Assembly: GCF_003144115.1 (NCBI RefSeq)
Contig: NW_020312001.1
Span: 284,845 to 348,844 of the forward strand
DNA from: Tilletiopsis washingtonensis
Taxonomy: Eukaryota > Basidiomycota > Exobasidiomycetes > Entylomatales
DNA length: 64,000 bases
Direction of reading: 5' to 3'
In this document: positions 4,828-28,955 of the stretch, piece after piece
How positions within the stretch are numbered: the stretch's first letter is position 1
How the letters are laid out: each line of letters begins with the position of its first letter
Notes under the pieces: model-generated
The model's database searches: none
What the model was told of the DNA's origin: nothing
What the model saw: only the letters and a program-made list of their open reading frames with translations
Made by a program: the position numbers and the translations under genes

Positions 4828-7800
4828 ATGGAGATCGCGCTGCATGACCCTCGCACGCCCCTCGAGCACTCGCTCGACGAGCGCGAGGGCTGGTCTGACG
4901 AGGAGCGCAACCGCCGCTGGCTCGCCGAGCGGCTCATGCCGCCGGCCGAGCTCTCGCACCTCGGCGCCGTGCTTAGCTGGCGCGCACAGACTAGTCCAGA
5001 CTACAAGGTGCTCAACTGGACGGAGCCGAAGGGCAAGTACGACCTCCAGGTGACGCGTTCGGTGAGTGTCGAGACTGGCCCGCAGCCGCCCGTGGCTCAG
5101 CGCTGACGGCCCCCCGGCCAGCTCACGTATGCCGAGCTCTGGGAGCAGGCGTCGCGTGTGGCGCGCATGCTCCGCGACGAGTGCGGCGTGCAGCCCGGCG
5201 ACCGCGTGCTCTGCGTCTTTGAGTTCGGCCTCAACTACTGGCCGGCGTTCTGCGGATGCTTTCTCGCGGGCGCAGGTGAGTGCGGCAGTGCGAGCCGGCT
5301 CGCGAGAGGCTACGCAGCTGACGTACCGCCAGTGGCCGTGCCGGCGTACCCGCCCGACCCGACCAAGCTGCAGGCGCGCCTGCCGGCCTTCTCGCGCATC
5401 GCCAAGGAGAGCGGCGCCAAGATGTGCCTGACGTCGGTGCTGTACTGGCGCGCCGCCTTCGTCTCGAGCGGCCTGTCGCGCATGCGCAACTTCGTGGCAC
5501 GCAACGGCCGCTCCGTCGAGTGGCCGCCGCTGACGTGGAAGACGACGGACAGCCTCAAGCCCGACGGCTTTCCCGTCGACTACGGCGCCTTCCACAGGCC
5601 GGCCGACGATGACCTGGCCTTCATCCAGTACACCTCGGGCAGCACGAGCGACGGCGGAAAGGGTGAGTGGCCCATGAGCGCAGCCACCTCCCACGCTCGT
5701 GCTGACGGTGTGACCAGGCGTGATGGTCACCCACCGGGCACTGCGTGCGAATCTCGAGGCCATCGGCTATGCCTCGAAGCACGTGCCGGGCGACCGCGTG
5801 TTCAGCTGGTGAGCCGTGCCAGCTCGGACCATCTCGTCGTCGCCGCTGACGCAGGCACCGCCAGGCTACCGGCCGGGCACGACATGGGCCTCGTGGGCTC
5901 GTACCTCTGTGCGCTGTGGGGCTCGTCGCAGGGCTTCTACGCGAGCCCGATTGAGTTCATCAAGAACCCGATGATCTGGATGACGGGCATGTCCAAGTTC
6001 CAGGCCAGCTTCTCGCAGGGCCCGAACTTCGCGTGGGCCTTGGCAGGTGAGTGCTGCGCTCATGCACCGCACGTCCGACACTCATCTCGACCGCGCTCGT
6101 AGTCAAGAAGTACGACGGACGGCCGCTGGATCTGTCGTACATGCGCATCCTGATCAACGGCGCCGAGCCGGTGCGGCCCGACACCCTGCGAGCGTTCCTC
6201 GCGCTGTACGCGCCGATGGGCCTCTCGCCGAGCTCTGCCCGCCCAAGTTTCGGCCTCGCAGAGAGTTGCGTCTACGTGACGGGCAACGACTACCCCAAGG
6301 AGATCGACGGCGACATCATCAGTGCCGAGGGCTATGTGCTGCTCGGCCCCGCCAAGCACCGCGACACCGACATCCGCATCGTCGACCTGCAGACGTGCAG
6401 GGAGGTGCCGCCGGGCTGCGAGGGCGAGATCTGGGTCACGAGCCAGAGTCTGGCGATCGGCTACTGGGGCCGCCAAGAGCTGAGTCAGACTGCCTTCTAC
6501 GCGCGCCTGGAAGGCACAGATCCCGCCATTCGCTGGCTGCGCACCGGTGACCTGGGCCGCCTGGTGCCTCGAGGCGGCGACGAGCGCCTGCATCTGGTCG
6601 TCAGCGGGTGAGTCGTCCGCGTTGTCCGGCCATCGCCTCACACAAGCGCATACTGACCATACGACATGGCCCAGCCGCGAGCGCGACATGATCATCCTTG
6701 GCGGCGTCAACAAGTTTCCGACAGACATCGAGGCCGAGGTCGCGGACGCGGCGCCCGAGCTTCTGCGTCCCGGCTGTGCGGCCGCCTTTGCCGTGCCGCT
6801 GGATCCGGAAGGGCAGGAGATCATCCTCGTGACCGAGGTCAGGGACGCGAAAGACGTTCGCGTGACGGATGCCGCTGCACGCCGCGCTCTTGCCGAGGAG
6901 CTCGCGTGTGGCGTGTGGGACGCCACCGAGGTGCCACTGTCGTCGATCGTCTTCATTCCGCCTCGCAGCATCTGCAAGACGACGTCGGGCAAGGTGCAGC
7001 GTCGCCTGTGCGCTTCTCTGCTTGCCAGCCAAAGCAAGGATCTGCCGATCCTCTGGCGCGAGGACAGCCTCGAGACGCCCGTGGGCAAGCACATTCTGCG
7101 CTCTCAAGTACAGGCAGCGCTGGCGGAAACGGAACACTCGGACGAGCTTGCAGCGCACATCGAAGAGATCATCAGCGAGGTGCTCGGTGCCACGCTGGCG
7201 GCAGCAGCGCCAGGCGAAGGCGCGACGCTGGCACAGCGCGGGCTGGACTCGATCCAGCTGATGCGTGCAAGCAGTCTCATCAAGCAGCGCCTCGGCATCT
7301 CCATCGGCCTCACAGACGTCGGCAGTCTGCAAGACGCCCAGAGTCTGGCTGTGCATGTTCGCAAGCACTGCGCCGCTGGCGGCGCACTTGCGCTGGACGC
7401 CGACGCGCCCAAGACGATCGTTCCGGACCCGGCTGCGCGCTATGAGCCTTTCCCGCTCATGGACATGCAGTCGGCGTATCTCTTCGGGCGCACCGCCGCG
7501 GTCGACGGGCTGGCGCCCATTGGCTGCCAGGTGCGTTACTGTCCTCTCCTGGCTCCCGGACCTACGTGCCTGACGATCCGCATCGCAGATCTACGAGGAG
7601 ATCGAGCTTACAGGCCCGCTGCGCGTCGAGCGCTACCAGACTGCGCTGCGCAGCCTCGTGCAGAGACACGATGCCCTGCGCGTAGTGTTCGATCTGGACA
7701 CTCTGACGCAGCGTGTCCTGCCCGAAGTGCCCGATGTGCAGATCGAGGTGCTCGACCTCGACGGCATGGGCGACCAAGAGGAGCAGAGTGTCGTTCTGCA

Positions 7801-10800
7801 GAGCATCCGCGAGGAGATGTGCTCGCAAATTCTGCCGGCTGATGAGGCGCCGCTGCTGCAACAGCGCCTCACAATCCTTGCGCCGGGACGTGCCTTCCTG
7901 CACATCGCCATCGACCTGCTGCCGCTCGACTTCTACAGCATCGGCCTCATCCTGGAGGAACTGCGCGCGCAGCTGCAGCAGGAGAGTCCGAGCTTCGCGC
8001 CGCTCGAGCTCACGTTCCGCGACTGTGTCCTTGCGCAAGCAGCCAGCCGCAAGTCTCGCGCGTACGCCCTTGACCGAGCGTACTGGACGGAGCGCGCACA
8101 GAGCTTCGCAGCGGCACCTGAGCTTCCGACGCTGCCGCGCGAGCTCGGCTCTGCTTTGCCGCCGGCCTTCCGTCGCTACCAGCATCGGCTGAGTGCTGAT
8201 GTGTGGCTCCGCACGGAAGCTCTCTGCAAGCAGCGGGGCACCAATGAGACGGCTCTGCTGGCCTCGGTGTACGCAGCCGTGCTCAGCCGCTGGTCCGGCT
8301 CGCCGCTCATGGCCATCAACTTGACGATCTTCAACCGCCTCTCGCTTCCATCGCACGCCGACCTCTCCCGCGTTCTCGGCGACTTCACGTCCTCGCTTCT
8401 GCTGGAACTGTCGGCCGCCGCGAGCGAGAGCCTGGCGACGCAGGCCGCGCGTGCCACCAAGCAGCTCGGCCAGGACATAGCGCACTCAATGTTCAGCGGC
8501 ATCGAACTCATGCGGCACATGCGCAGCGTCGGCATCGACTACAAGTCCAACGGCTTCGTCTTCACAAGCATCCTCAACCACGCGCTCGATCTCGGGCACT
8601 TTGAGCGCAACCTCGGAGGCCGGCGTGTGTATGGCGTGAGCTCCACGCCGGGCGTGCTCGTCGACTTCCAGGCAATCAAGGAGAGCGACGGAGGCCTCAT
8701 GGTGCGCTGGGACTGCCGCGACGGCGTCTTTCCGCCTGGCATGCTGGACACAATGTTCAGGGCCTTCACCTCGGTGCTTGACTCGCTGCCAAAGGAGCGT
8801 GCCTGGGATGCGCCCGTTGACGTTCGGCTCGGCTCGGATCTCGAAGCGCGGCAGCAGGCCAACTCGACGCAGCAGAATGTCGGCGCGCCTGACCTCCTGC
8901 ACCTTGCGTTCCAACAGATCGCTTCCACGCAGCCGACGCGCGCCGCCATTTGCGCTCCTGACGGCTTGGTCGTCAGCTATGGCGCCCTGCTCGTCAAGGC
9001 CACGCGCACGGCCGCATTGCTCGAGCCTCTCTTCGACGGCGTCCCGCGAGGCGAGCGCAAGGTGGCAGTCTTCGCCAAGCGGGGCTGGCGTCAAGCGGCC
9101 GCCGCCCTCGCTGCTCACTATGCAGGTGCAGCATGGGTGCCGCTCGCCACCGACCTGCCGCCTGCTCGTATCACCAAGATTCTGCACGGCTGTCGTTGCA
9201 CGATTGTCCTCGCCGACGAAGAAGCCGTTTCCAAGCTGCGAGGCGACCTCGCAGACCCGGCGGTGCGCGTTCAAGCTCTGGACGCCACGGTGCCGGACGT
9301 CGACGATGAGCACCCCGACTTCACCTCTGGCGCCCAGCCGAGCTCGCCAGCATACATCATCCACACGTCAGGCTCGACGGGCGAGCCCAAAGGCGTCGTC
9401 GTTTCGCACGAGGCCGCCGCAAACACCTGCTGGGACCTCTTCTCGCGCTTCTCGATCACGTCGGACGACTGTCTTCTTGCCGTCTCGCGCCTCGGCTTCG
9501 ACCTCAGCGTCTTCGATCTCGCGCTCCTCGGCCTCGGATGCCGTCTCGTGACGGTGTCGCAGGAGACCGAGAGTGATCCAGCTCATTGGCTCGAGCTCGT
9601 CATGCGGCATCGCTGCACCATCTGGAATAGCGTGCCGGTCGCGCTGCAGATGCTCCTGGAGATCGCCGACACGCCGCAGCAGCTGGCATCGCTCCGACTG
9701 GCAATGGTGTCTGGCGACGTCGTGCCTGCGCCGCTCGTGCAGCGTGTGCGTGCAGAGCACTCGGGACTGCGCCTGTGGTCGCTCGGCGGCGCCACCGAGT
9801 GCTCGATCTGGTCGATTGCCTACCCATGCGACGAGATGGTCGACACCCGGCGGCGCGTGCCCTACGGCCGTCCGCTGGCGAATCAGCGCTGGCACGTGCT
9901 CAGCAGCGTCTCGCCTCTGCAGCATGCGCCGACGTGGGTGACTGGCGAGCTGGTCATTGCTGGGAAGGGCCTCGCCATCGGCTACACGGATCCCGCCAAG
10001 ACAGCGGCCAGCTTCGTGACTGATCCGGCCTCGGGTGAGCGCCTGTATCGCACCGGCGACCTCGGACGCTACCTGCCCGACGGCACCATCGAGATCCTCG
10101 GGCGCATGGACAGCCAGGTCAAGACTGACGGCGGGCACCGCGTCGAGCTGACGGAGATCGAGAGCACCATCGACGGCATCGTCGGCGTCAAGCAGTCGGT
10201 CGTCGCTCTGCAGCCAGACCGCACGCTCGTCGCCTTCATCACGACTGAGCAGGCTGGCGACGAGGCCCCGGAGATGGATCCTGTCGAGAAGGCCGCCTTC
10301 CGCGACCGGCAGCTCGGCATCCTGGCTGCGTCGGGAGACGCGCTCGAGGTGCCCGGCGCCCCCATCGACGAGACGCTCGTGGTCCAGCGCAAGTCGTATC
10401 GCTCTTTCGAGTCTCAGACCCTCCCGGCCCAGACGGTGCATGCTTGGCTCGACCAGGCGTTGGGCCCCGACCTCCCGCACGGCATCGCGCCTGGCCGCAC
10501 AACAGATGTCAAGCTCTTCGCGTCGAGCTTCTTCGCGCTCAAGCTGGGCGACTCGTGGAAGTACGCCTATCCGTCGGCAGGCGGCCTCTATCCTTGCCGC
10601 GCCTTCCTCGAGGTCGGGCCCGGTCACGAGGTGCAGGCGGGCATCTACTACATCCATCTACAGCGTCAAAGCCTCGTGCTCGTCAAGCAGCCTCCGACGA
10701 CCACTCCTCTGGCCGAGGGCACGCTCCGCCTCTCCATCGTTGCGCACGAGCCCGCCATAGAGCCAGCGTATGGTAAGGCCTGGCGTGAGCTCGCCACGTG

Positions 10801-11930
10801 GGAAGCAGGCTACATGCTGGGCCTTGCTTCCGACGCTGCGGCACGGCAAGGCGCCTGTCTGGAGCCGTGCGACGGCACCTCGCGGCTTGCAGACGTCATC
10901 GACCCGCAAGAGGACGTCGTGCTCTGCACGTTCAGCGTTGCCAGCAAATCCGCCTCTTCGTCGCTCTCTACGTCCGGCGAAATGCTGCTCTTCGTGCGAC
11001 GAGGCGCGATCGAAGGCCTCGACGAGCCGTCGCTCTTCCGCGTCACGGGCGCAGGCCTCGAGCCCATCGGCACGCCCGCCGAGGCTCGCGAGATTGACGC
11101 CACGGGCGCGCTCGGCGAGAACGGCACGACGCTTGCCAGCAGCAGGCTCGTCGTGTGCCTGCTGGCCGATCTTCGCGATGCGCTCGAGGTAGGCCGCGCT
11201 GCGTGGCGGCTGCAGACGCGCGGCCTCAAGCACGGCATCGGAAGCTGCCCGATCCCGCGGCTGGACGCGGCGACAAGCAGCCTCGTCGAGGCACACGCGC
11301 TGGACAGCAAGCACCGCATCGCTCAGGTGCTGCTCTGCGGGCCGGTCTCGCAGGCGCAGCTTCTCGAGCGCGCATGGCCGTCGGGCTCGAGCCTGCGTCT
11401 GCCGCGCGTCGACCCGGTCAAGCACTACGTTGCCAAGCGGCTGCCGAGCTACATGGTCCCCGCACGCGTCATCTACCTCTCCTCCCTGCCGCTGTCGTCG
11501 AACGGCAAGGTCGACCGCAAGGCGCTGCCGATGCCGAGCAACACCCTTGCAGATGCGACGACAGAGGGCGCCGAGCGACCGTTCGCCGAGCCCGCGACCG
11601 AGGTGGAGCGCCGTGTGCGCACCATCGTTGCGCAGCTGCTCGAGGTCGACGAGACGACGAGTGAGTGCCCATCCCGTTCAGCTGCGCGTCCACCGCTGAT
11701 CTCAGCGCGCTCCAGTCTCGGTCGAGACGGACTTCTTTGCCGCCGGCGGCAACTCGCTGCAGGCCGTGCGCCTGATCACGCGCCTCAAGAAGGAGTTCGA
11801 GGTCACCGCGGACTACGTGACGCTCTTCCAGGAGCCGACGGTGCGCACCATCGCCGCCTGCTGCAGCCAGCGCTCTCTTCTGGGCGCCGCAGCGGCGGGC
11901 CTGGGCTCACTCCTGGGCCGCGCAGCGTGA
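4828..11930 (+). CDS. Bacterial-style lipo-thiazole NRPS: FAAL-ACP-Cy-A(Ox)-PCP
   Basis: Single-protein synthetase of ~2212 aa in nine exons: 4828-5061, 5122-5275, 5333-5662, 5718-5808, 5865-6046, 6103-6607, 6675-7530, 7589-11660, 11716-11930. All phases close. Order: fatty-acyl-AMP ligase (aa ~1-600; QYTSGSTSDGGKG, SWLPAGHDMGLVG, SFGLAES); ACP with GLDSIQ (Ser ~691); heterocyclisation domain (aa ~750-1190; FPLMDMQSAYLFGR and DLLPLDFYS, the DxxxxDxxS signature; GDFTS); adenylation domain (HTSGSTGEPKG ~1376; RTGDLGRYLPDG); an oxidase of the McbC/SagB FMN family inserted between A8 and A9 (aa ~1700-2050; YPSAGGLYP, GIGSCPI); A10 NGKVDRK; PCP with GGNSLQ (Ser ~2155). Inferred chemistry: a fatty acid is loaded, joined to Cys, cyclised to thiazoline and oxidised to thiazole. 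No thioesterase or reductase follows. Neighbours are housekeeping genes, so it is not in a visible cluster. Confidence 0.93.
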
Positions 11931-17211: not shown

Positions 17212-17938
17212 GGCGGCGGCGGCGTGTGAGGAAGTGTAGACGGTGAAGATGGAGCAGAGAGAGGCGCGGCAGGTGCGGCGAGCAGAAGGAGCGGCGCCGA
17301 GGTGGAGTCGTGGGTGTGGAGAAGCAAGCCGCCCGGCGCAGATGCAGCGCGGCCGCCGCCGCCGCCGCCGCCGCCGCGCGCCACGCCGCCTCGCCTCTGC
17401 GCCAGCAGCACGTCGCGCTGCCCCGCGCCGTGCACCGCGTAGGCAGCTGGACCGACCGTCGACGCAGCACCAGCATCACGCTTGTACATCCAGAGCAGCA
17501 GCCAGCGGCCGCGACGATGCTTTGCTCTGCCAGCCGCAGCAGGTGCGACGCTCGCTGAGCGGCCGCAGCGTCAGCGCCGGCAGCGGCGTACGTGGAGGCC
17601 CGAAATATACCGCTGCCGGCCGGCCGCGCCTGCCAAGGCAAGCAGCGCAGGGTCGGCGGCCGCCGCGGCACGTTCTCGCCCCTGACGCTCGGCTGAAGCA
17701 AAAGCGTCAGGCACGCGGCGGCGCGCGCCGCGGCGGCTCTTGTGGGGTGATGCGCGCGCGTGTTTGCTAGCCCTCTGGCAGCGTCTCTGGCAGCGACCTG
17801 CGGCGAGCATGCGCCTTGTTGAGCGGCAGCACGACACTGAATGATGGCACAGCGGCGCAGACATGCAGCATCAGCAGCAGGTGATGGCGAAGCATCAGCG
17901 CAGCGCGGCCCGAGCGCCGGCGGCGGGAATGGCATGGG

Positions 17939-18007
<69 letters not shown>

Positions 18008-18339: not shown

Positions 18340-20105
18340 ATGTCCTCGCGCGGCGGCACGCCGGCGCAGGCGGCCTGGCACGCCCACGCCGACGACGACG
18401 GCTACTCGGAGCGCGACCTCGGCGACTACGCCCGCGCCGCCGCGCCGTACTACGCCCCGGCGTCGGCGCCACACGGCCGCTACTCGCTGCCGCCGCTGCA
18501 CGCCGAGCACGCCGGCTACTACGCCGCACCGGCGCCGCAGCGCGCCACGTCGCTCGAGGTCGGCAGCGTCTACGGCTCCGAGCCGTGCGCGGCGCCCGCG
18601 TCGCAGTACTCGCGCTCCTCGGCCGGCCATGCGCCGTGGGGCGCCGGGGCGCCGATGCACGCCGCGCCTTCGCCGCCGCCGTGGCAGTCGCCGGAGCAGG
18701 CCTACTGGTACGCCGGCGCGCCGCCGTCCGTGGCGTCGCGCTCCAGCGGCGCGTATGCCCGCGCGCTGCCGCTCTCGCCGCCGCCGATGGGCGAGTATGA
18801 TGCGGAAGAGGGCGGCCCGGGCTTCTTCGGCGTCGAAGCGGCTCATCATTTGCCTGGACGACGCGGTGGTGGCGGACAGCGGGACGAGTACGCACGGCCG
18901 ACTGACGAGCTGCCGGCCTTTCCACCATGGAGTAGGAGCTGGTGAGTCTGCGCCTCGCATCTTGCCGCTGCGTACGGCAGTGCTGACACGAACACGCAAG
19001 GTATGCTGGACACCTCTCTGCCGACGGTCACGCCTATACAACGGTGCCGCCGCCAGGCTCGGGCTGGGAGTCCGAGACGATGACTCGCTCTGGCGCCTCG
19101 AGGGCACACGCACCGTACGGTCACCCCTATGGCCGGCCGCCAGGCGCCGGTGAGGCCGAGTACGTCAAGGAGGAGCGCATGCGCATGCTCGAAAAGGAGT
19201 TTGGCGCGCCGCGCATCAGCCACGGCGGTCGCGGTGACGACGAGGAGCTCGACGAGGGCGAGGAGGACGAGCTGGTGCTCGGCAGCGTCGATGCCAAGGG
19301 CCGCCTGATCACCGAGCGGCCGCGCGTGGTGCTGTGGCTGCGCATCTTTCTCGGCCTCGCTGCCGTCGCTGCGCTGGCGTGCGGTCTGGGCGGTGCCTTG
19401 CTCATCAAGACCGTCGGACCGCCGCCTGCTGCAAAGGGCACGATCGCTGCCTACGTGCTCTACATTGCCAGCGCCCTCACCGTCGTGGTGCTGCTCTACG
19501 TCTATGTGCTGCGGCCGTGCTGCTGCGACCCGCGCCGCAAGGTGGCCGCGGGTGACGCATCTGCCGGGCTCGGCGGGCTCGTCATTCCCGTGCTCTCCGG
19601 TGGCGCAGGCGGCAAGGCGGGCAAGCCGCCAAAGGGCTTCAAAGGCATGAAGGGCATGAAGGGTATGAAGGGCGGCATGGGCGCAGGGCCGACGGTCAAC
19701 CTCGTCATCGATCCGACGCTGCTCGCACGCGGCCGCGGCGACTCGGACTCCGAGGATGAGGAGGAGCACCTGCCCGGTGGTGCTCGGCGCAAGCGTCGCA
19801 AGCGCCGCTCGCCGCTCGGCATGCTGGGCAACATGCAGCTGCAGGCACGCTGGCGCGTCGCACGCGCGACGGTCAAGCTGCAGACGACGTGGGATGCGGT
19901 GCTGCTCGTGCTCTGGATCGGCGCCGTCGTCGTGGCGCTCGGCATGGGCAAGAAGTGTCCGGCCGGCAGCAGCGGCGGCTGGTGCGACTTCTACAATGCT
20001 GCCATCGCGTGCGGCGTGCTCGTCGCCGCCACCCTTGTCGTGCTGCTCTACTTCGACTACCGCGATCTCCGCATCTCGCGCACGCCGCCAAAGGCGCCGC
20101 TCTAG
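18340..20105 (+). CDS. Four-pass membrane protein with long Pro/Gly/Tyr-rich N-terminus, unrecognised
   Basis: Exons 18340-18941 and 19001-20105 (intron 59 nt), 568 aa. Residues 1-~300 are low-complexity and hydrophilic, with many YYAP/PPP motifs and an acidic patch (DDEELDEGEEDELVLG). Four hydrophobic segments follow: ~309-333 (LRIFLGLAAVAALACGLGG), ~345-370 (then CCCDP, possible palmitoylation), ~497-516 (VLLVLWIGAVVVALGM) and ~535-556. Between TM2 and TM3 lies a ~125-residue loop with FKGMKGMKGMKGG, an acidic DSDSEDEEE stretch and basic RRKRRKRRS. A Cys pair (KKCPAGSSGGWCDFY) sits in the short TM3-TM4 loop and could form a disulfide. I do not recognise the family; the 2+2 TM pattern resembles tetraspan proteins only in outline. 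Confidence 0.85.
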
Positions 20106-23100
20106 ACCCGCTCTGCTGCTGCCGATCGTCCCGTGCCCTGTCTCCGCATCATCATTCCTCGGACCCCCGACACTCCACTCATATTCCCAGCTGCTTGCAT
20201 CTCGGCGCGTGACCCAATACATCGCTTTACTGCTACACATGCGCGTGCCATCGTGATGCGCGGGCTGGTGTCACTTGGACGTGATCCCTTGGCCGGGCAC
20301 GCGCCGCTTCAGGCTTAGACGGTCGCTGACGCGCCTCGCTGCCGAGAGGACAGCAGTTCTGCGTCATCAGGCGTAGCTTCTGGCGCCGCAGTGTAATATG
20401 CAGAAGGCAGTCGCGCCGGCTGTAGCGATGGACGGCTGCAGCAGCGGCGCCGCCAGCCGAGCGTCCTCTTCGACGCCCGGCCGTCAGCTCGTCCCGCAAG
20501 ATGCGGCGAGCAAGGTCGTCTAGTCACTCACATGCAAAGCCAGCATTCATCTCTTCCTTTCCAGCCTCGTTCGGTGGGTCATCGCCGGCTGCAGCTTCTT
20601 GCATGGTGCAACAGGTCGGAGACGCAGCGCAGCATACGCCACGTGTGCACCCACTCACAGCACCGCAAAGCACAAAGTCAGAGAGAAGACGAAAGCTTGG
20701 GGCGGACGAGGGCAAGCTGCGGAATGTCATGCCCGCGCTAACGTCTGCGATAGCAGACGAAGGCAGAGCACGAGACGCGAGAAGGTGGTGCGGTCGCGAG
20801 CCCGATGACGACGCTATGCTCGAGGCGCGAGCAAGCCTGAGCTCCGAGGGAGACAGAGTGGCGACATCACGGGCGAGCGAACGTGGGAGACGTTGCGACG
20901 CTGCAGAGCACGAAGAGGATGCATCCTGCCTCAACTCGAGCAGGCCCCTCTCGAGGGCAGCGAAGACGCACAATGGGGCTCCGCACTTCAGCTCAACAGC
21001 GAGCTAGTCAATTGCTGAGCTGAAGCTCAGCAGGGCTCGACGATGTCGCTAAGGCACAGCAACACGAGTGCGCAGAGCCAAAGCCGCGTGCGTGAAGAGC
21101 CGTGCTGCGATGGTGAAGCTACAGAGTCGTCGACAGCCGCTCAGGTAGCGAGACCGGATGCACGACTCGGTCAGAGTAGTACACGTCCGCACGATGTCGG
21201 TGGTGTGCGAGCGTGGTGCACTCGAGCGTCGAGGCACAGCAAGGAGAGAGCATGGGATAGAAGGTCGAGGTGAAGTGTGAGGAAGGTGGGGTCGGATGGT
21301 GAGCGAGAAGCAGGTAGCAGCAAGTTGAGCACCAGAGCCGCAGCAGCCACGACGCCTGCTTGAAGGCAAGGACAGACGGCACCCTTCCGCCCCGTCTCGC
21401 ACATCCTCGTCAGCAGCCCACAGCAGCAGCCGGCGGAAGACGAAAGGCTGCCTCAAGCGGACGAACAGCCGCTCAGCGAGCAGCAAGGAGGAGTCTGGGC
21501 GGCTCTGCAGGCAGCAGCGGAGCAGGAGCAGTACAGTCGAGTTGCGGGCGGCGGCGCCTCGGCGTCGGGCATGAGACAGCGCGCTTCTCGGGCCTCTTCT
21601 CTGCACCTGCTTGCCGCGCGCATCTCGGCACCGGCGATGCCACAGCGCGCAGTAGGCAGCTCCTCCAGCTGCGGCCTCACACGGGCAAGAGCTTCCATCA
21701 AAGCATACGCGCACGATCTGGCGACACTGCAGTTGCAGGCTGGCGCTCGCGCTGGACGAGGTCGGACACGCTGCGCTGTGCCCGCGGTGCCTCGCCGCGG
21801 ACGAAGCACGAAGCAAGCGGCGGATGTCGGTGCTGCCCATCATTTGCAGCAGTGCAGGTGGCAAGCTGGCATCAAGATCGTCGCAGGGCCCGCGCCGCCG
21901 AAGCTCGGGCAAGCAGCCGCTGCAGGCTGGAAGCTCGGGGCGAGGGCGAGGGCGAGGGCGCGTCATGCGTGGCGTGACTTGCTGCACGTTGGCGCCGAGA
22001 GCGAGATGCGGCGCTCGGCTGTTGCGCAGCATCGCTCGTGCAGCGCTGCTCCTCCATCGCATGCATCGCCGCCGCTGCCTCATGCCGCAGCCGGCGGAGC
22101 GCGACGCGTATTCGCCCGCCGAGGTGAGGCCAGCGCGGGCAGCGGCGGTGCCTCGAGCAGGCACAGAGCGCGGCATCCTCGCAGCGACGACAGCAGCCAG
22201 CGCACGACAGACAGCGAGACTGGACAGCATCTGCACGTCAGGATGGCGGCGGGAGGAGGAAAGGCAGGCGCACATCAGCACGGCCGCAGCCAGACGCAGC
22301 CGGCTGCCGCAGCCGCAGCGCCCACCTGCTTCCGCGCCTGCTGCATCTGGCGCTGCGCTGTCGTGTGCCGCCCACAAATGCAGCGCTGCTCGATGCGGAT
22401 GGCGGGTCGCCGACGCTTGCTCTTGCGGCCCGGGCCTGCCGCAGCTGGATAGGCCGGGCACCTGGAAGCGCCGGTCCCGTGACGCTGCCCCTTGTTCCGC
22501 TGCGCCGGGCGGCACTCCGCGCGCGCGCCGCGGCAGCGCACGTCCACCCCGGGAAGCACGTCGCACACGCCCCAGACCGCCTCTCGCTGCGGGCGCACTT
22601 ACCGATGGTGTCCAGTGATGAAGCGCATGAGGTGCTGTAGATTACTTGAGCGCTGCAGTCCAAGTCTGGTCGCCTCACTGCCGGCGACTGGCGCGCGCTG
22701 CGCGTCTCGGCTGTAGCACGACGCGTCACCACGAAGCCCGCCCCCTCCGACCCGCGTGCGCTGGACTGCAGCCGCCGTTACAGCTTCTCCTCGGATCCAG
22801 AACCCAGCTATTCACCAGTCGCATGATTTCTGATGCACTCTTGGTGGACACAGTACTCCCTACTGCGCTCTCAGCAGGGCCGCTCGCGAAAATCATGACC
22901 GCCGACACTGAGCACGACGCAATTCGGAGCGACGGCGCGTCGACGCGCCGACGCTGGCGCGCGCGACGGATCTGCATCATCGGGAATTCGCGCCCCGGCG
23001 AGCAGCGCGCTGCAGGCGGTGTCGGTCTCGAGCTCAAGCCAGCTTCCGTGCTGCCCATCGCGCTTGTATGCTGATGGGAGAGCTCGTACAATACACAGGC

Positions 23101-26100
23101 TTGCCTCTCGCCGGGCTGCGAACGCGCACATCACAAGGCGTGGGCAAAATCACGCCTCGAGGTGCGGCCTTGAGGCTGGTCCTTAGCACAGCGAAGGTGC
23201 ACAGTGGTACAGGCACCTGAGGTGCTTGTCTGGGAGCTGGAAAGGGGTGCTGCCATGAGAGGCTCATCATGCATCAACGGCCGAGCCACGTGCTGGCTGC
23301 CACGTGCAGGCATGCGGAAGCATCGCGTGCACTGCGCCGTCGCGGGTGGCCTGGAGGAAGAAGCTCTGGGTAAAGCGGGATTGGCGCAGACGATGACAGT
23401 CCACAGCTGTAGACCTTGTAGACGTGCTGAATCGGGGATTAGACAAGTCATGACTGCGACTGAGCGTCAAAGACAGCGGCAAGAGTTACAATGTGCGGGA
23501 CAAAGTAGGATCCGGGAGATCTTCGAGGCACGAAGCCTCACGGCGGGGTCCGGCGCGCGTGAGCTCGGGTCGCGGCCGCAGACAGCACCGAGCTCTGCAT
23601 TCTGTGCTCACACAGCTTGCCCTGCCTGCTTGACCTTCATGAGGAGAAACTTGCAGTCGCATCACGTGAGCCGTCTTGCGGATATGCCGGGCGCCGCGCA
23701 GGAGCTGGCGAGCATGCAAGCTGGGTGTTGGGCGCTCCGGCCGAGGTGTGATCAGACGAACTTGCTGGCGCATGCTCTGCTGCCGTCCTGGCTACCGCGG
23801 CAGGTGGGGCAGGCGAGCGGCCGCGGCGATCGCGGAGAGGCGGGATTGGCCTCCTCGCGTCCGCACCACCGCGGCGCGGCGCGTTATGCGCCCGTCGACT
23901 GCCGAGACGCCCGGCGGCGCCGCTCTCCATCTTCCCGCTCGCGGCCCACAGAGTCCCAGAGACAGACGCATCATGCAGGAAAGCGCAGGAAGTTTGAGCG
24001 CTGCCAGCGGACAGGACAGCTCGGGCGCAACCATAGCCAGCGGCTGCACCGAGATCGCACTCGCCTACGGCTGCGGACGAGCAGCGTCCTCTCCTGCCAG
24101 CGCAGCGCATGCACAGCCTCGGAGCCTCGTCTGACTCCTCGCGTGCTGGACCTGAGACGCATCTGACCCGCACGTCGTGCCCGCTACTGCCGCTGTAGGC
24201 TCGTCGCTGCCGCCTCCACGTCGCCGTCGCGCTTTGGTCCAAAAGGGCCTGCTGGTCTTCGAGGCACCCACAGGGCGCAGGACACAGCACATTCACACGA
24301 TGGCGGCAGAGCAGAGTACACACATCAGCATTGCCTCGTCACTGCTGCAGCGCCGGGCACCGCTGCATCCTGACCGAGGCGCAGCCACTGGCGACCCAGT
24401 CCCGCGCTCGATGCTCTTGCTCGTGGCGCTGCAGCATGCATGCTCGCTGCCCGTGCTCGCGTGCGGCATGCATGCCCTCCGTTTCGCGATGGCGGTAGAT
24501 GCTCTCGTGCTGCAGCCTCGCGCCGGCTGCCCATCGAGCGCATGCACATACAAGGAGCGGCGGCGCCGACAGAAGCGGTCTCGCAGCCTGGCTGACACAC
24601 TGCATGCTCACCGTCGCGCCGTCGCACAGTGCTCCTTCGCCGCGCCATGCCCACGCGGGAGACGCCTGAGCGTCCCACTCGGCACTCGACGTCCGCACCG
24701 GCAGCGGGCATGGCCGTAGCCACGCTGCTGCGGCCCGAGCATGGCCAAGCACATGCGCTGCCACAGCGCCTGCAGCTGTGCTGCCCGAAGCAGCTCGGAG
24801 TAGCACCGACGGAGAGCAGCTTCTGGGGTGGCCCAACCGAGCAGAGAGAGCTGAACGTGCTCCGCGGGAGAGCGACAGCGGAGCTTGCGTGTGTGTGCGC
24901 AAGCGCGATGCGGGTGGGCTGCTGAATCTCTGCACCGTGCGCAGCAAGCCGCCGGAGCAGAGGTGTCTGCAGTGACAGAGCGGAGAGGCCGTCGCACCGT
25001 GCGGCAAGCGAGGTGTATGAGAAGAGGAGTGTGGACAAGCGTGAGGAGATGGATGGACGAAGTTCGTTGCTGCGGTGCTCGCCGATGGGCAAGGCATGCA
25101 CGGCCGGCGCGTCTGCGGCCCAGCGTCGTCGATCATTGGCGTCGTCACCAGAGAGGCAGGCAGGCCGCTCACCCACACCCGCCGCGCCGGCCCGATGGCT
25201 GCGTCCCAGGCAAAGAGTAGAGTGGCAGCCGTGCGCAGAGTGCTTCTACAAGGCGGCCATAGTGCGCTCAGGCTTCGCTCCACCAGAGTGCCGCGCTCCG
25301 AGAAACGATGCGAGCGAGACAAGCAGGGAGGAGGCTGACAGGCAGGCTCTTGTGCTCGTTTGAGCCCACCCTGCGCCGCCGCGCCGCTGTCTCGGCGCCC
25401 TCGGCCTCACGGCGAGCTAGGCTGTGCCAGCGCTCGCGTGGTGGCGCGCATTTCAGGTGAAGGCAGCCGGCAGATCTTCCACGGCCGGGGGTGCCTCTGG
25501 CTGGCTCGGGGTCGCACCACAGCGCGCCGTCTCGCGGCCTATTCGCGGCGCACGGTTCCGCCGTTGCTGCCTCAGCAGCAGAGCGTCTAATGAGCGGCTC
25601 GAGGCGGTACGCTCCCATCAGTGTCGAGAGAGGCCGGCCTCGGGCAGGCACGGCGCCGAGCGGCCTGCGTCTGGCTGTACCGCAGACGGCCGTCTGTGTG
25701 CGAGCGTGTGCCTGGGTGCTGTGCTGCTGCTGCTGCGCGGCGCGGCGCACGCGGCGTAGTGAGCGCGCCGCCGCCGCCGCTGCTGCCGCTGCTCGCTGCG
25801 TGCCGTGGGCGGCGCACCGATGCCTGCGGCCCGCAGCGTCGGCCGTCTCGATTTGCCTGTCACGCCGCCGCGGCGCGCCGGCGGGCAGTGACGAGGGCGC
25901 CGCACTCCCAGCACCAGCCGCCTCGCCTCGCCTGCTGCGCTGGCTGCGCGCACACCGCCGCTGTCCAAGCCTCCGGCCGGCCGCAGCCGCAGCGTCCGGA
26001 CCACCACATCTCATCTCTCCCTGCCTGTCCCCACACAGGCTCCTCGTCGCACCGGTCTCGCGCGGGTGGACCAGCTCCGAGGACGGCGCCGCCGTCTGCT

Positions 26101-26816
26101 CTGCCGCGGCCCGCGTGCCCGGCCCGTCTGCGCCTTGCCTCGCGCGTGCCTATCCGCCATCTGCTCCCGCACATCCACACGCGTCGCCTCTTCTTCCTGC
26201 GCCGGCACCGGACCCGGACGTGGACTCCACGTCTCTGGACCCCTCGCAGGCTCGCGCCTCGCCTGCGCACGCGCAGACACCGCCTCGCCGGCGACACACT
26301 GCCGCCATCGTAGCTGCACATCCGTGAACCCTCCTCGCTGGCCGGCCTGAACCTCGGTTCACCGTGCCTCTGCTCCACACTTTCTCCGGCGCACCGCCAG
26401 AGAGGCCGTCCGACCACCTTTCCGTCATCAGTCCGCGGCAGGCTTCGTCCTGACACTCCGCGACCGTTTGCCCTTGTTCTGCTCTCACGCCCCTTGCTCC
26501 TTTCTCGGATCGTCTTTGCGCGGTCCTCTCCATCTTTTCCTCGCGAGCATCCCCATTCTGTCTGCAAGCTCGCCGAGTCTCGCGCCTCGGACCACGAACC
26601 ACCACACCTCGCTCGCGCTTTCTCTTCTGCCTCGCGTAGCCGCCGAGCAGCGCTACCCACGGACCATCTCGACCGCGTGGCCTCCATCCCTCGCAACCGT
26701 GTGCTCGCTCTCGGCCTTCGCGCGTGCTCAAAGCCGCGCCTCTACCGTCCAACCCCTCGTCACTGCAGCCTCAGCATCGCCCGCAAGGCCGTGCCGACTT
26801 GCGCCGTGACAGCGGC
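20106..26816. other. 6.7-kb stretch with no supportable gene
   Basis: Lies between two plus-strand genes. Open frames on both strands reach 505 codons (minus, 21049-22566) but are Cys/Arg/Ser/Ala-rich and match no family. A minus-strand exon-like piece at 20532-20604 starts with a plausible ATG (MQEAAAGDDPPNEAG...) and ends at a GTGAGT donor, but its downstream exon is unresolved. A (GAGGGC) run lies at about 21937-21962. The 22780-23530 part looks less GC-rich than the rest. A TCACGTGA palindrome is at 23662-23669. I found no tRNA B-box, snRNA or other RNA signature by eye. Confidence 0.5.
26461..26640 (+). promoter_or_regulatory. Pyrimidine-rich leader upstream of the PUB1-like gene
   Basis: Long runs of C and T on the plus strand (for example ctcctttctc, cctctccatcttttcc), 180-350 bp before the start codon. 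CT-rich tracts of this kind often mark fungal core promoters and transcript starts. Inferred from composition only. Confidence 0.4.
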
Positions 26817-28955
26817 ATGTCGGTCACTCAGCCGCAGGGTGTCGTCTCCTTCCTACCGCCAGGAGAGACGCCGCAGCAGCCCTTGATCCATGTCAGCGGC
26901 CTGCATCCTCGCGTGAGCGAGTGAGTATGGCTGCGGCACCAGCGACATCGTTGGAGACTTGCTCACGCGCTGCTCCGCTCAGGGCGATGCTCGAGGACAT
27001 CTTCTCCGTGGCCGGCGCCGTCGTCAATGTGCAGTTCCTCGCCGGGCGCGAAGGCGCTCGTGCGGCGCTCGTGCGCTACGCGGACTTGCGCAGCGCAGGC
27101 GCGGCCATGCGCATCCTCTCCCAGCGCCAAGTCTTTGAGCAGCAGTTGCGCCTCAAGTGGGCCAACCTGATCCCGCACGCCGGCGCAGGCCACTCTCCCG
27201 CTGGCGGCCCGACGGAGCCGGCGCCCGGCCGGCCGCAGAGCGAGCCGTATGAGAACCTGAGCCTGTCGCCGCGCGTGGAGCAGCATCGCTCGCTCTCCTT
27301 CATGGCGAGCAACACTACCACTGCCACCACCACCAACTCGTCGCAGTCGTCGGGTCTGCTCGCTCCCGGGCCCAGCGCATTCGTCTCGGGCGAGGCCAGT
27401 CCGTCGAGCGCTCCCACCACCGCTCCCACCGAGGGCGAGGCTGCATCCGTCGGCCATCAAGTCTGTGAGTATATCTCGTGCGGGGATCCAGCACGCCACT
27501 GACATGCGCATGCACGCACAGTCGTTGGTGATCTGAGTCGCGACGTGAATGATGCGGCGCTGGCGAACGCATTTGCGTCCTTCGCGAGCTTGAGCGAAGC
27601 ACGTGTGATGGTGCGTCCAGCGGCGGACGTCGGCCAGCAGTCGACACTGACACCGTGGCGAAAGTGGGACGCGGCGAGCGGCAAGTCCCGTGGATATGGC
27701 TTTCTCGCCTTTCGCGAGCGTCATGATGCCGAGCAGGCCAGTGAGTGCCTCGCGACAGGCGTCCACCCACACTGGCGTCGATCTGACCGTGTCTCGCCTA
27801 GTTGCGGTCATGAACGGAGAGCTTCTCGGATCGCGCGCCATCCGCGTCAACTGTGAGTGCATTGCTGTGCGTCTGGCGTGCGTCGGCTGACGCTCGACGG
27901 CATTCCGCAGGGGCGAATGAGAAGGCGGCGCCGGTCCAAGCTGCGCCAGGCGACTCGCCAAGCGCGGTGCAGCCGTCGAGCAGCGGCGGTATGGGCATGC
28001 CGCCGACGGCCGGTGCCTCGTCTGGACCTCCGCTGAGCTACGAGACGGTCTTTGCGGCTGCGCCGCCGACCAATGCGACCATCTGTGAGTATGCTCTGCG
28101 CCGTGATGAAGTCTGTCGTTGAGACGTTTGCTCCAGACGTGGGCAATCTCGCGCCGAACACAAGCGCCAGCGATCTCAGCATTCTTTTTGCCGCTTACGG
28201 ACAGGTGCTCGAGATTCGGATGCAGGTGCGTGGCTCGGGTCACGAGTGCTGCTGCCGAGCTGACCAGCCTATCCAGTCGGACCGAGGCTTCGCCTTTCTG
28301 AAGCTCGACACGCATGAGAATGCCACGCATGCCATTGTCGGCCTCGGCGGCCACCCGCTGCATGGCCGTCTCATCAAGACCGGCTGGGGCAAGGACCGCC
28401 AGGACGCGGCCATGCGCAGGGCGGGAGCGCCAGCGGCGGCGAGCGCGCCAATGCTGCAGCCGCCGCAGCTGCAGCAGCAGCAGTCGCAGCAGCAACAGCA
28501 GGAGCACTACATGGTGAGTGGCGTGGCACAAGCGGCGCATTGGCACTTGCGTCAGCTTCTCTGCTGTGAAAGGAGAAGGCGGCAGAGGAACGGACGGCGA
28601 GCTGGGCAGACGGATAGACGCTACGCGGAGCAGCGCAGTCCCTTTCGCATGTGTGAGCTGACAGCCGCTGCAGATGCCTCAGCAGATGTACGGCGTGATG
28701 CATCCCGTGCACTATGGCTTCAGCGTCTATCCCGGCGCGATGGACATGGGCAGCATGCAGCCGATGCACCCGCAGTCCGCCATGCAGGGAGCCGTGCAGG
28801 GCGCCAGCAGCCAGATGGGCCTCGCTCAGCCGGCGCAGCAGCAACAGCCGCAGCAGCAGGCCATGTACGGCTACCCGCCAGCCTCGTCTGCGGCGCAGCA
28901 GTCGCCGCACCAGCAGCCGCAGCAGCACCGCCAGCACCAGCCGCGGCCGTGGTAG
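26817..28955 (+). CDS. PUB1: Three-RRM RNA-binding protein, PUB1/TIA-1 type
   Basis: Binds U-rich mRNA and poly(A)+ RNA, controls mRNA stability and joins stress granules. Exons: 26817-26920, 26983-27464, 27522-27740, 27802-27852, 27911-28084, 28137-28225, 28277-28513, 28674-28955; 545 aa. RRM1 (aa ~22-100; LIHVSGLHPRVSE) is degenerate at RNP1. RRM2 starts at FVGDLSRDVND (~196) with SRGYGFLAF and ends IRVNWANEK, the TIA-1/Pub1 hallmark. RRM3 starts at YVGNLAPN (~344), has RGFAFLKLDTHENA and ends KTGWGKD. The tail is Gln/Met-rich (QQQQSQQQQQ, QQPQQQ), a likely phase-separation segment. The last intron (160 nt) is long. Nam8-type proteins share the RRM layout, but the WANEK linker and Q-rich tail favour PUB1. 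Confidence 0.9.

Follow-up and report, generated by a model that had tools for sequence, protein, structure and literature searches.

The 64,000-nucleotide window analysed here (contig NW_020312001.1, positions 284,845 to 348,844 of the forward strand) comes from the basidiomycete Tilletiopsis washingtonensis and holds, at 4828-11930 on the plus strand, one predicted nine-exon gene whose spliced translation runs from the ATG at 4828 to the TGA at 11930 as 2212 codons without an internal stop. This single, intact-looking gene is predicted to encode an enzyme that joins a fatty-acyl-AMP ligase (FAAL), an acyl carrier protein (ACP), a heterocyclisation domain (Cy), an adenylation (A) domain with an embedded oxidase (Ox) and a peptidyl carrier protein (PCP), in the order FAAL-ACP-Cy-A(Ox)-PCP. 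Its features are as follows.

4828-5061, 5122-5275, 5333-5662, 5718-5808, 5865-6046, 6103-6607, 6675-7530, 7589-11660, 11716-11930, plus strand: whole gene, nine exons (splice model and translation)
4945..7023, plus strand: FAAL-like acyl-AMP ligase, residues ~40-615, catalytic Lys in TTSGKVQRR (NCBIfam, PDB sequence matches, motif)
7126..7368, plus strand: ACP, residues ~650-730, serine in GLDSIQL (one of two Pfam PP-binding stretches; motif)
7432..8821, plus strand: Cy domain, residues ~752-1195, split by intron 7531-7588 (PDB matches, tree, motifs)
7913..7939, plus strand: Cy signature DLLPLDFYS, of the form DxxxxDxxS (motif)
8882..10216, plus strand: A domain core, residues ~1216-1660, with a cysteine-type code (Pfam, NCBIfam, code motifs)
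10373..11362, plus strand: embedded, predicted pseudodimeric Ox; RKSYR and YPSAGGLYP lie in its first half, the Asn position and GSCPI in its second (motifs, HMM, predicted model)
11402..11536, plus strand: C-terminal part of the A domain with SSNGKVDRK, motif A10 (Pfam, motif)
11594..11876, plus strand: PCP, serine in GGNSL, split by intron 11661-11715 (Pfam PP-binding; motif)

The eight introns measure 55-67 bases each, with donors GTGAGT (six), GTGAGC (one) and GTGCGT (one) and acceptors CAG (seven) and TAG (one), and seven of them carry a CTGAC or CTGAT site 15-22 bases before the intron end. Exon 7 (6675-7530) is stop-free and spans the C-terminal part of the FAAL, the ACP and the N-terminal part of the Cy domain, and exon 8 (7589-11660), also stop-free, holds most of the Cy domain together with A and Ox. 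Because exon 7 alone runs from FAAL through ACP into Cy without a stop, it argues against two separate genes, a reading that we rejected. Seven of the eight introns fall before residue 785, leaving one in the next 4.3 kb; in POL2 of the same window the frame breaks likewise crowd at the 5' end and the next 5.3 kb are open, so such crowding is ordinary here. Codon usage resembles that of the host (r = 0.98 against POL2 for relative synonymous codon usage; G+C content at third codon positions, GC3, 0.84 versus 0.92 for POL2), and both measures are similar along the whole gene. A preliminary description of this DNA had proposed one spliced nine-exon gene carrying all of these domains; its coordinates and exons appear right as far as sequence can tell, and its domain content is confirmed by Pfam, PDB sequence matches and motifs.

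Contamination or mis-assembly of bacterial DNA would account for a bacterial-type protein, but it is contradicted by eight spliceosomal-type introns within the gene, by the eukaryotic genes that flank it left and right on the same contig and by three JGI contigs, up to 40 kb long, with a near-identical fragment of the protein. We therefore rejected it, its probability being negligible.

Domains of the synthetase

Pfam placed AMP-binding matches in two stretches of the 2212-residue protein, a Condensation match in one and PP-binding matches in two, and a Nitroreductase match at residues 1716-1791 fell just under its cut-off (21.6 versus 23.5 bits). The ACP (GLDS) and PCP (GGNS) retain their serines, and TTSGKVQ and NGKVDR their lysines.

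The condensation-type (C) domain is most clearly classified as Cy. Compared by sequence with the PDB, its eight best rows are all Cy-containing proteins, from EpoB (2.4e-67) down to PchE (1.1e-40) and including 6lta/FmoA3, which we take to hold a Cy, and the row after these eight drops to 5.9e-13. The domain contains DLLPLDFYS and has no HHxxxDG. Among 21 other Cy rows, 20 have D-x4-D-x2-[ST], with the match of P0107 lying in another stretch and P0003 having none; HHxxxD[GA] occurs in 13 of 22 non-Cy rows, and three of the 22 show a chance match to the Cy pattern. A tree of 47 C domains (the query, 21 other Cy domains of which 14 are from named bacteria, 22 non-Cy domains that were the first found among protein-search matches, and three partial domains from the fungus's own genome) placed the query within the Cy clade with support 100/100, and grouping the query with the three C domains found elsewhere in the fungus was rejected (p-AU 2.3e-5). 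The sister of the query is P0044, an ENA protein (96/89), with an end branch of 1.25 for the query. A plain fungal C domain is thus rejected, and the earlier statement that DxxxxDxxS replaces HHxxxDG holds. Cy domains are described as having a catalytic Thr-Asp dyad and a helper Gln (PMC9547227); assigned by motif and spacing, these are T1110, D1143 and Q1145 in the fungal protein, with a Thr-Asp spacing of 33 versus 32 in HMWP2-Cy2.

The A domain carries the code DLFNMSLIWK, with positions assigned by motif and not by structure alignment. On this motif-based reading it shares nine of ten letters with DLYNMSLIWK, which is printed among the cysteine codes of Ox-bearing modules (PMC12283262); DLYNLSLIWK is another code of this kind.

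The oxidase is inserted between A8 (residue 1633) and A10 (about residue 2089), and A-domain alignments, for example to 5es8_A (469 aligned, model 1-885), bridge it. According to Fortinez et al. (PMC8795117), indigoidine synthetase has a larger insert that is a pseudodimer of Ox, and EpoB a smaller Ox. The A8-A10 span of the fungal protein is 456 residues versus 321-347 in Streptomyces proteins of the same layout, and the extra length is predicted to be a second, degenerate Ox half. RKSYR matches the FMN-phosphate residues R145, R146, S147 and R149 given for BmdC in the same paper (PMC8795117), and the Tyr of EPAYG is invariant in A1 and A2, its equivalence with BmdC Tyr260 being judged by spacing. 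A hidden Markov model (HMM) of 329 positions was built from five long Ox domains, and the fungal Ox matches its positions 2-328, the query being itself one of the five model rows. In a structure prediction for A plus Ox (mean pLDDT 74, 18 sequences), a nitroreductase-like strand/helix pattern appears twice, with secondary structure read by eye; an Ox-only model (mean pLDDT 50) was not used. Modelling and motifs together indicate that the Ox is pseudodimeric, of the indigoidine synthetase kind, with two fused halves. The preliminary description was right to place an oxidase inside the A domain, and missed that its kind is the long pseudodimeric one and not the shorter one of EpoB.

This Ox is also the most divergent region of the protein (26% identity to P0121 and 27-33% in further comparisons). 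Searching proteins with the Ox region, with scoring confined to the 7999 candidates that had most words in common with it, gave two matches: the JGI copy of the query and a single protein of the indigoidine type. A scan of genome contigs with two patterns, one of them the common A8 motif, gave at least 80 loci; BLAST showed an Ox in five of the 80 listed, and the HMM showed one in L009 also.

For the first domain, the best NCBIfam row is 'fatty-acid--AMP ligase' (E 4.3e-83), all 25 rows shown being under curated cut-offs. Its first-ranked PDB match by sequence is 3kxw (3.6e-72), a Legionella FAAL deposited under another name; the entries at ranks 2-4 bear the name 'polyketide synthase', and those at ranks 5-15 comprise FadD32, FadD23, FadD28, acyl-CoA synthases and a fatty acyl-adenylate ligase. 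Among adenylating enzymes, the first domain is, by these similarities, closest to FAALs.

Bacterial counterparts and origin

The preliminary description had overlooked the occurrence of this layout in single bacterial proteins. FAAL-Cy-A order occurs in 24 other single proteins or loci among those collected, 18 from named bacteria and six without an organism name, the carrier between FAAL and Cy being deduced from the gap in these 24 and directly seen in P0031; the layout is consequently not new. Ox is present in 20 of the 24, lying ahead of the first A10-like motif, and so embedded, in 12 and behind it in three, with five undecided by pattern. In those 20, the long-Ox model finds no match past position 167 of 329, whereas the fungal protein reaches 328; by this model, none of the 20 shows a pseudodimeric Ox. 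What is new, as judged from these comparisons, is the dikaryan host and the pseudodimeric Ox in a FAAL-loaded Cy-A module.

Several bacterial systems resemble the fungal protein in different ways. Streptomyces P0031 (1997 aa) and its relatives have the same domain order in one protein that ends at PCP without a thioesterase (TE), and P0031 is 34% identical to the fungal protein over 83% of the query; unlike it, they have a short single Ox and a longer FAAL stretch. EpoB (Cy-A(Ox)-PCP), the best solved relative of the fungal Cy, is loaded by a polyketide synthase and not by a FAAL in cis. Indigoidine synthetase (IndC/BpsA type; here P0121 and L006) is a glutamine-activating A-Ox-T-TE enzyme that has no Cy, ends in a TE-like domain and makes a glutamine-derived pigment. 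It lacks a FAAL, whereas the fungal protein has a Cy, a cysteine-type code and no TE, yet the fungal Ox gives a near full-length match to a model that includes both P0121 and L006. Both EpoB and indigoidine synthetase carry their oxidase between A8 and A9, pseudodimeric in the latter and smaller in the former (PMC8795117).

A further group consists of Cy-A(pseudodimeric Ox) modules, which share the cysteine-type A domain and the long Ox; they occur in the myxobacterial class (L102, L109-L111, L120/L171), in L005 (from a metagenome-assembled genome of Neisseriaceae) and in L153/L169 and L132/L170, with their cysteine-type label resting on a short motif. Unlike the fungal protein, they are parts of other assembly lines. 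Long Ox is joined to A domains with cysteine-type motifs in eight rows of the long-Ox tree, and the three of those eight that were inspected (L005, L169 and L171) have A-PCP, not FAAL-ACP, upstream of Cy. The genome searches gave matches in 18 of 289 genomes searched in the class of Sorangium, eight of 350 in that of Moritella, 17 of 374 in that of Streptomyces and 13 of 291 in that of Calothrix, the genomes of each class being a sample from a larger group. L102, L109, L110 and L111, from the class of Sorangium, hold the cysteine-type A and pseudodimeric Ox in open reading frames of 6417-8002 aa, and in L102, which runs on into a ketosynthase, the end of a Cy precedes the A domain. In Streptomyces sp. 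MAR4 CNX-425, P0005 continues beyond FAAL-ACP-Cy-A(Ox)-PCP into another Cy-A-PCP and an end resembling a reductase; this suggests that a lipid with two heterocycles leaves the enzyme as an aldehyde or alcohol.

The whole-protein search scored 7994 candidates (size limit 1217-3871 aa), and the best 120 of its 999 matches were listed. Every one of these with an organism in its name is bacterial, many rows naming none, and apart from the near-identical JGI fragment the matches listed are 25-40% identical; no fungal-named match is among them. A control search of the same database with POL2 returned Ceraceosorus, Pseudozyma, Jaminaea, Tilletia, Malassezia and Exobasidium, and a close annotated fungal orthologue of the synthetase should therefore have surfaced. 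An old fungal gene, inherited vertically and lost in nearly all other fungi, would agree with the introns, the host codon usage and the long branches of the query; this we consider very improbable, however, given the absence of fungal names where POL2 finds its relatives, and given a C domain that sits inside the Cy clade apart from the fungus's own.

Transfer from bacteria long ago, with fungal introns gained since, is on sequence grounds the most likely origin, and massive intron gain after bacterial transfer into basidiomycetes is documented (PMC3584928). A bacterial origin is supported by the tree test for the Cy domain, agrees with the cysteine-type A code and is taken to hold for the A domain adjoining Cy. 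The FAAL tree (42 rows, query branch 2.06) and the long-Ox tree (27 rows, branch 2.8) do not place the query, and its placement is unsure in the Cy-A tree, which has 94 rows, none of them fungal (branch 1.34). The earlier proposal that the gene came from a bacterium is thus upheld for Cy and finds no such backing in the FAAL and Ox trees.

These two unplaced domains leave room for a chimera, in which the fungus joined a bacterial Cy-A(Ox)-PCP to a FAAL-ACP from another source, either a eukaryotic FAAL or a further transfer, or in which the Ox was swapped. The apparently shortened FAAL insertion described below, the introns crowded before residue 785, the lack of a pseudodimeric Ox in the 20 other Ox-bearing FAAL-ACP-Cy-A proteins and its occurrence in Cy-A modules behind A-PCP all lean this way. 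However, FAAL-ACP-Cy-A already exists in one chain in 24 other proteins, POL2 shows the same 5' crowding, and GC3 and codon usage change little along the gene, and we regard a chimera as unlikely, though deserving of weight.

Other fungal megasynthases with bacterial signatures include an NRPS-PKS (nonribosomal peptide synthetase-polyketide synthase) of Gigaspora margarita and clusters in Basidiobolus and Mortierella, and FAAL clusters in Glomeromycotina are further cases of bacterial-type secondary-metabolism enzymes in fungi (PMC7732545 and PMC8070225). Unlike Tilletiopsis, these are early-diverging fungi and not Dikarya; the terms FAAL, heterocycl, Cy domain and oxidase are all absent from the main text of PMC7732545. 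No fungal FAAL-Cy-Ox system or fungal alkyl-thiazole was recognised from titles and abstract openings in the mostly open-access literature.

Genomic setting

To the left of the gene lie a PABP-like RRM gene and a GrpE gene, and to its right a weak ubiquitin-like match, DUF427, an oxysterol-binding protein, an RRM protein and an acetamidase/formamidase, followed further on by POL2, a DEAD helicase, a proteasome subunit, a Trp/Tyr-type tRNA synthetase and a kinase. Of the 20 neighbour segments tested, five had no Pfam match, and most of those with one are housekeeping genes of eukaryotic type. The POL2 protein shares 66% identity with that of Ceraceosorus bombacis, the next named rows being Pseudozyma, Thecaphora, Jaminaea and Tilletia, which places the fungus in the Ustilaginomycotina. 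Much of the window is gene-dense, and nearly 7 kb (20103-26986) gave no coding segment in a codon-usage scan, so the window is not fully annotated. An open stretch at 17935-18006 has about 22 consecutive leucine codons and is probably a trinucleotide repeat.

Searches of the fungus's own genome covered 18.7 Mb in 32 contigs. The Condensation search found other places only on one contig (C15:58031-62559, minus strand; L001, L003 and L004, outside the Cy clade), and these C domains may belong to a siderophore NRPS. Two strong AMP-binding places lie 16 kb apart on another contig (C23:8225-9472 and 25601-26815) in open frames of 916 and 1634 aa, and the genome has three PPTase-like and two thioesterase-like places.

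Near-identical fragments of the synthetase (P0001) comprise six member sequences on three JGI contigs of up to 40 kb, and those of its POL2 neighbour (P0123) comprise four member sequences on six JGI contigs; environmental samples therefore probably contain this fungus or a strain close to it.

Proposed chemistry and significance

We put at roughly two-thirds the probability that this gene descends from an ancestral bacterial transfer and encodes a synthetase that turns a fatty acid and cysteine into a 2-alkylthiazole-4-carboxyl thioester. A bacterial FAAL-ACP-Cy-A(Ox)-PCP gene would have entered an ancestor of this member of the Ustilaginomycotina and there picked up introns and the codon usage of its host. 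The enzyme would work as a single-module assembly line: the FAAL-like domain would make an acyl-AMP from a fatty acid and load the ACP, the A domain would load L-cysteine onto the PCP, Cy would join the two and cyclodehydrate them to a 2-alkyl-thiazoline, and the FMN-dependent Ox would oxidise this to the 2-alkylthiazole-4-carboxyl thioester on the PCP. Release would fall to a partner encoded elsewhere or to slow hydrolysis. The gene model, domain order, motifs, Cy class and fungal setting are read from sequence; from these we infer transfer, substrates, product and release.

Several observations weigh against this account. No TE, reductase or other release domain follows the PCP in the protein, and no biosynthetic cluster gene was seen among the window segments tested, with 20.1-27 kb lacking a coding call. 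The stretch from A5 to GEIWV in the FAAL, where we take the FAAL-specific insertion to lie, is 53 residues versus 65-78 in 30 of 34 other rows (the remaining four having 45, 57 and, in two probable pattern errors, 26), so that the insertion looks shortened, which might loosen the choice between ACP and CoA. The Cy domain has TPGVLVD, with Gly for Gln, where 17 of 21 other Cy rows have TPQ or TSQ, and its sister P0044 is an ENA record without an organism name. The best PDB match of the Ox insert, to BmdC oxidase (4e-4), is weak and covers just 49 residues. No group is supported as the donor, identities reaching at most 41% in the domain trees beside the 25-40% of the matches listed, and the query's branches in the Cy-A, FAAL and Ox trees are long.

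Some of these points would also fit an ordinary bacterial transfer with different chemistry, in which the Ox is inactive or altered, the product a thiazoline or the acyl group not a fatty acid. The Gly in the TPQ motif, the divergence of the Ox, the apparently reduced FAAL insertion and a fatty-acid substrate that is only predicted are compatible with it. Yet RKSYR, YPSAGGLYP, GSCPI and the Tyr and Asn positions are all retained in the Ox, in a pseudodimer layout, the Cy dyad and helper Gln are kept, and the named solved relatives of the first domain at ranks 5-15 are FAAL-type ligases, so that we find such a different outcome distinctly unlikely. Of the preliminary labels, 'FAAL' stands by similarity to FAAL-type ligases, subject to the shortened look of the insertion, and the proposed 2-alkyl-thiazole-4-carboxylate lipid is a sound reading of the domains and A code for which the protein encodes no release step. 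P0031 likewise ends at PCP, and a partner in trans is therefore likely there too.

Returning to the preferred account, in which a transferred bacterial synthetase makes an alkylthiazole, it is quite possible, and we advance this tentatively, that this dikaryan genome encodes a lipo-thiazole synthase of bacterial descent that is complete in a single gene and stands outside any cluster. Its pseudodimeric Ox in a FAAL-loaded Cy-A module was met in none of the 24 other FAAL-ACP-Cy-A proteins collected. Such an enzyme would make a fungal class of 2-alkylthiazole-4-carboxylate lipids, which an unlinked host enzyme would release or pass on. The sequence shows a whole bacterial-type thiazole module, intact by anatomy, in a basidiomycete; it contains introns, follows the codon usage of its host and has no visible cluster around it. 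Specialists would be surprised by its occurrence in this host, by the absence of a visible cluster and by a FAAL-loaded module that carries a fused Ox dimer. The protein, in whose Cy module a fused Ox dimer occurs naturally, may inform where oxidases can be embedded, and it would provide a case of megasynthase transfer into Dikarya. If the alkyl-thiazole lipid is indeed made, fungi would have an NRPS route to thiazoles.

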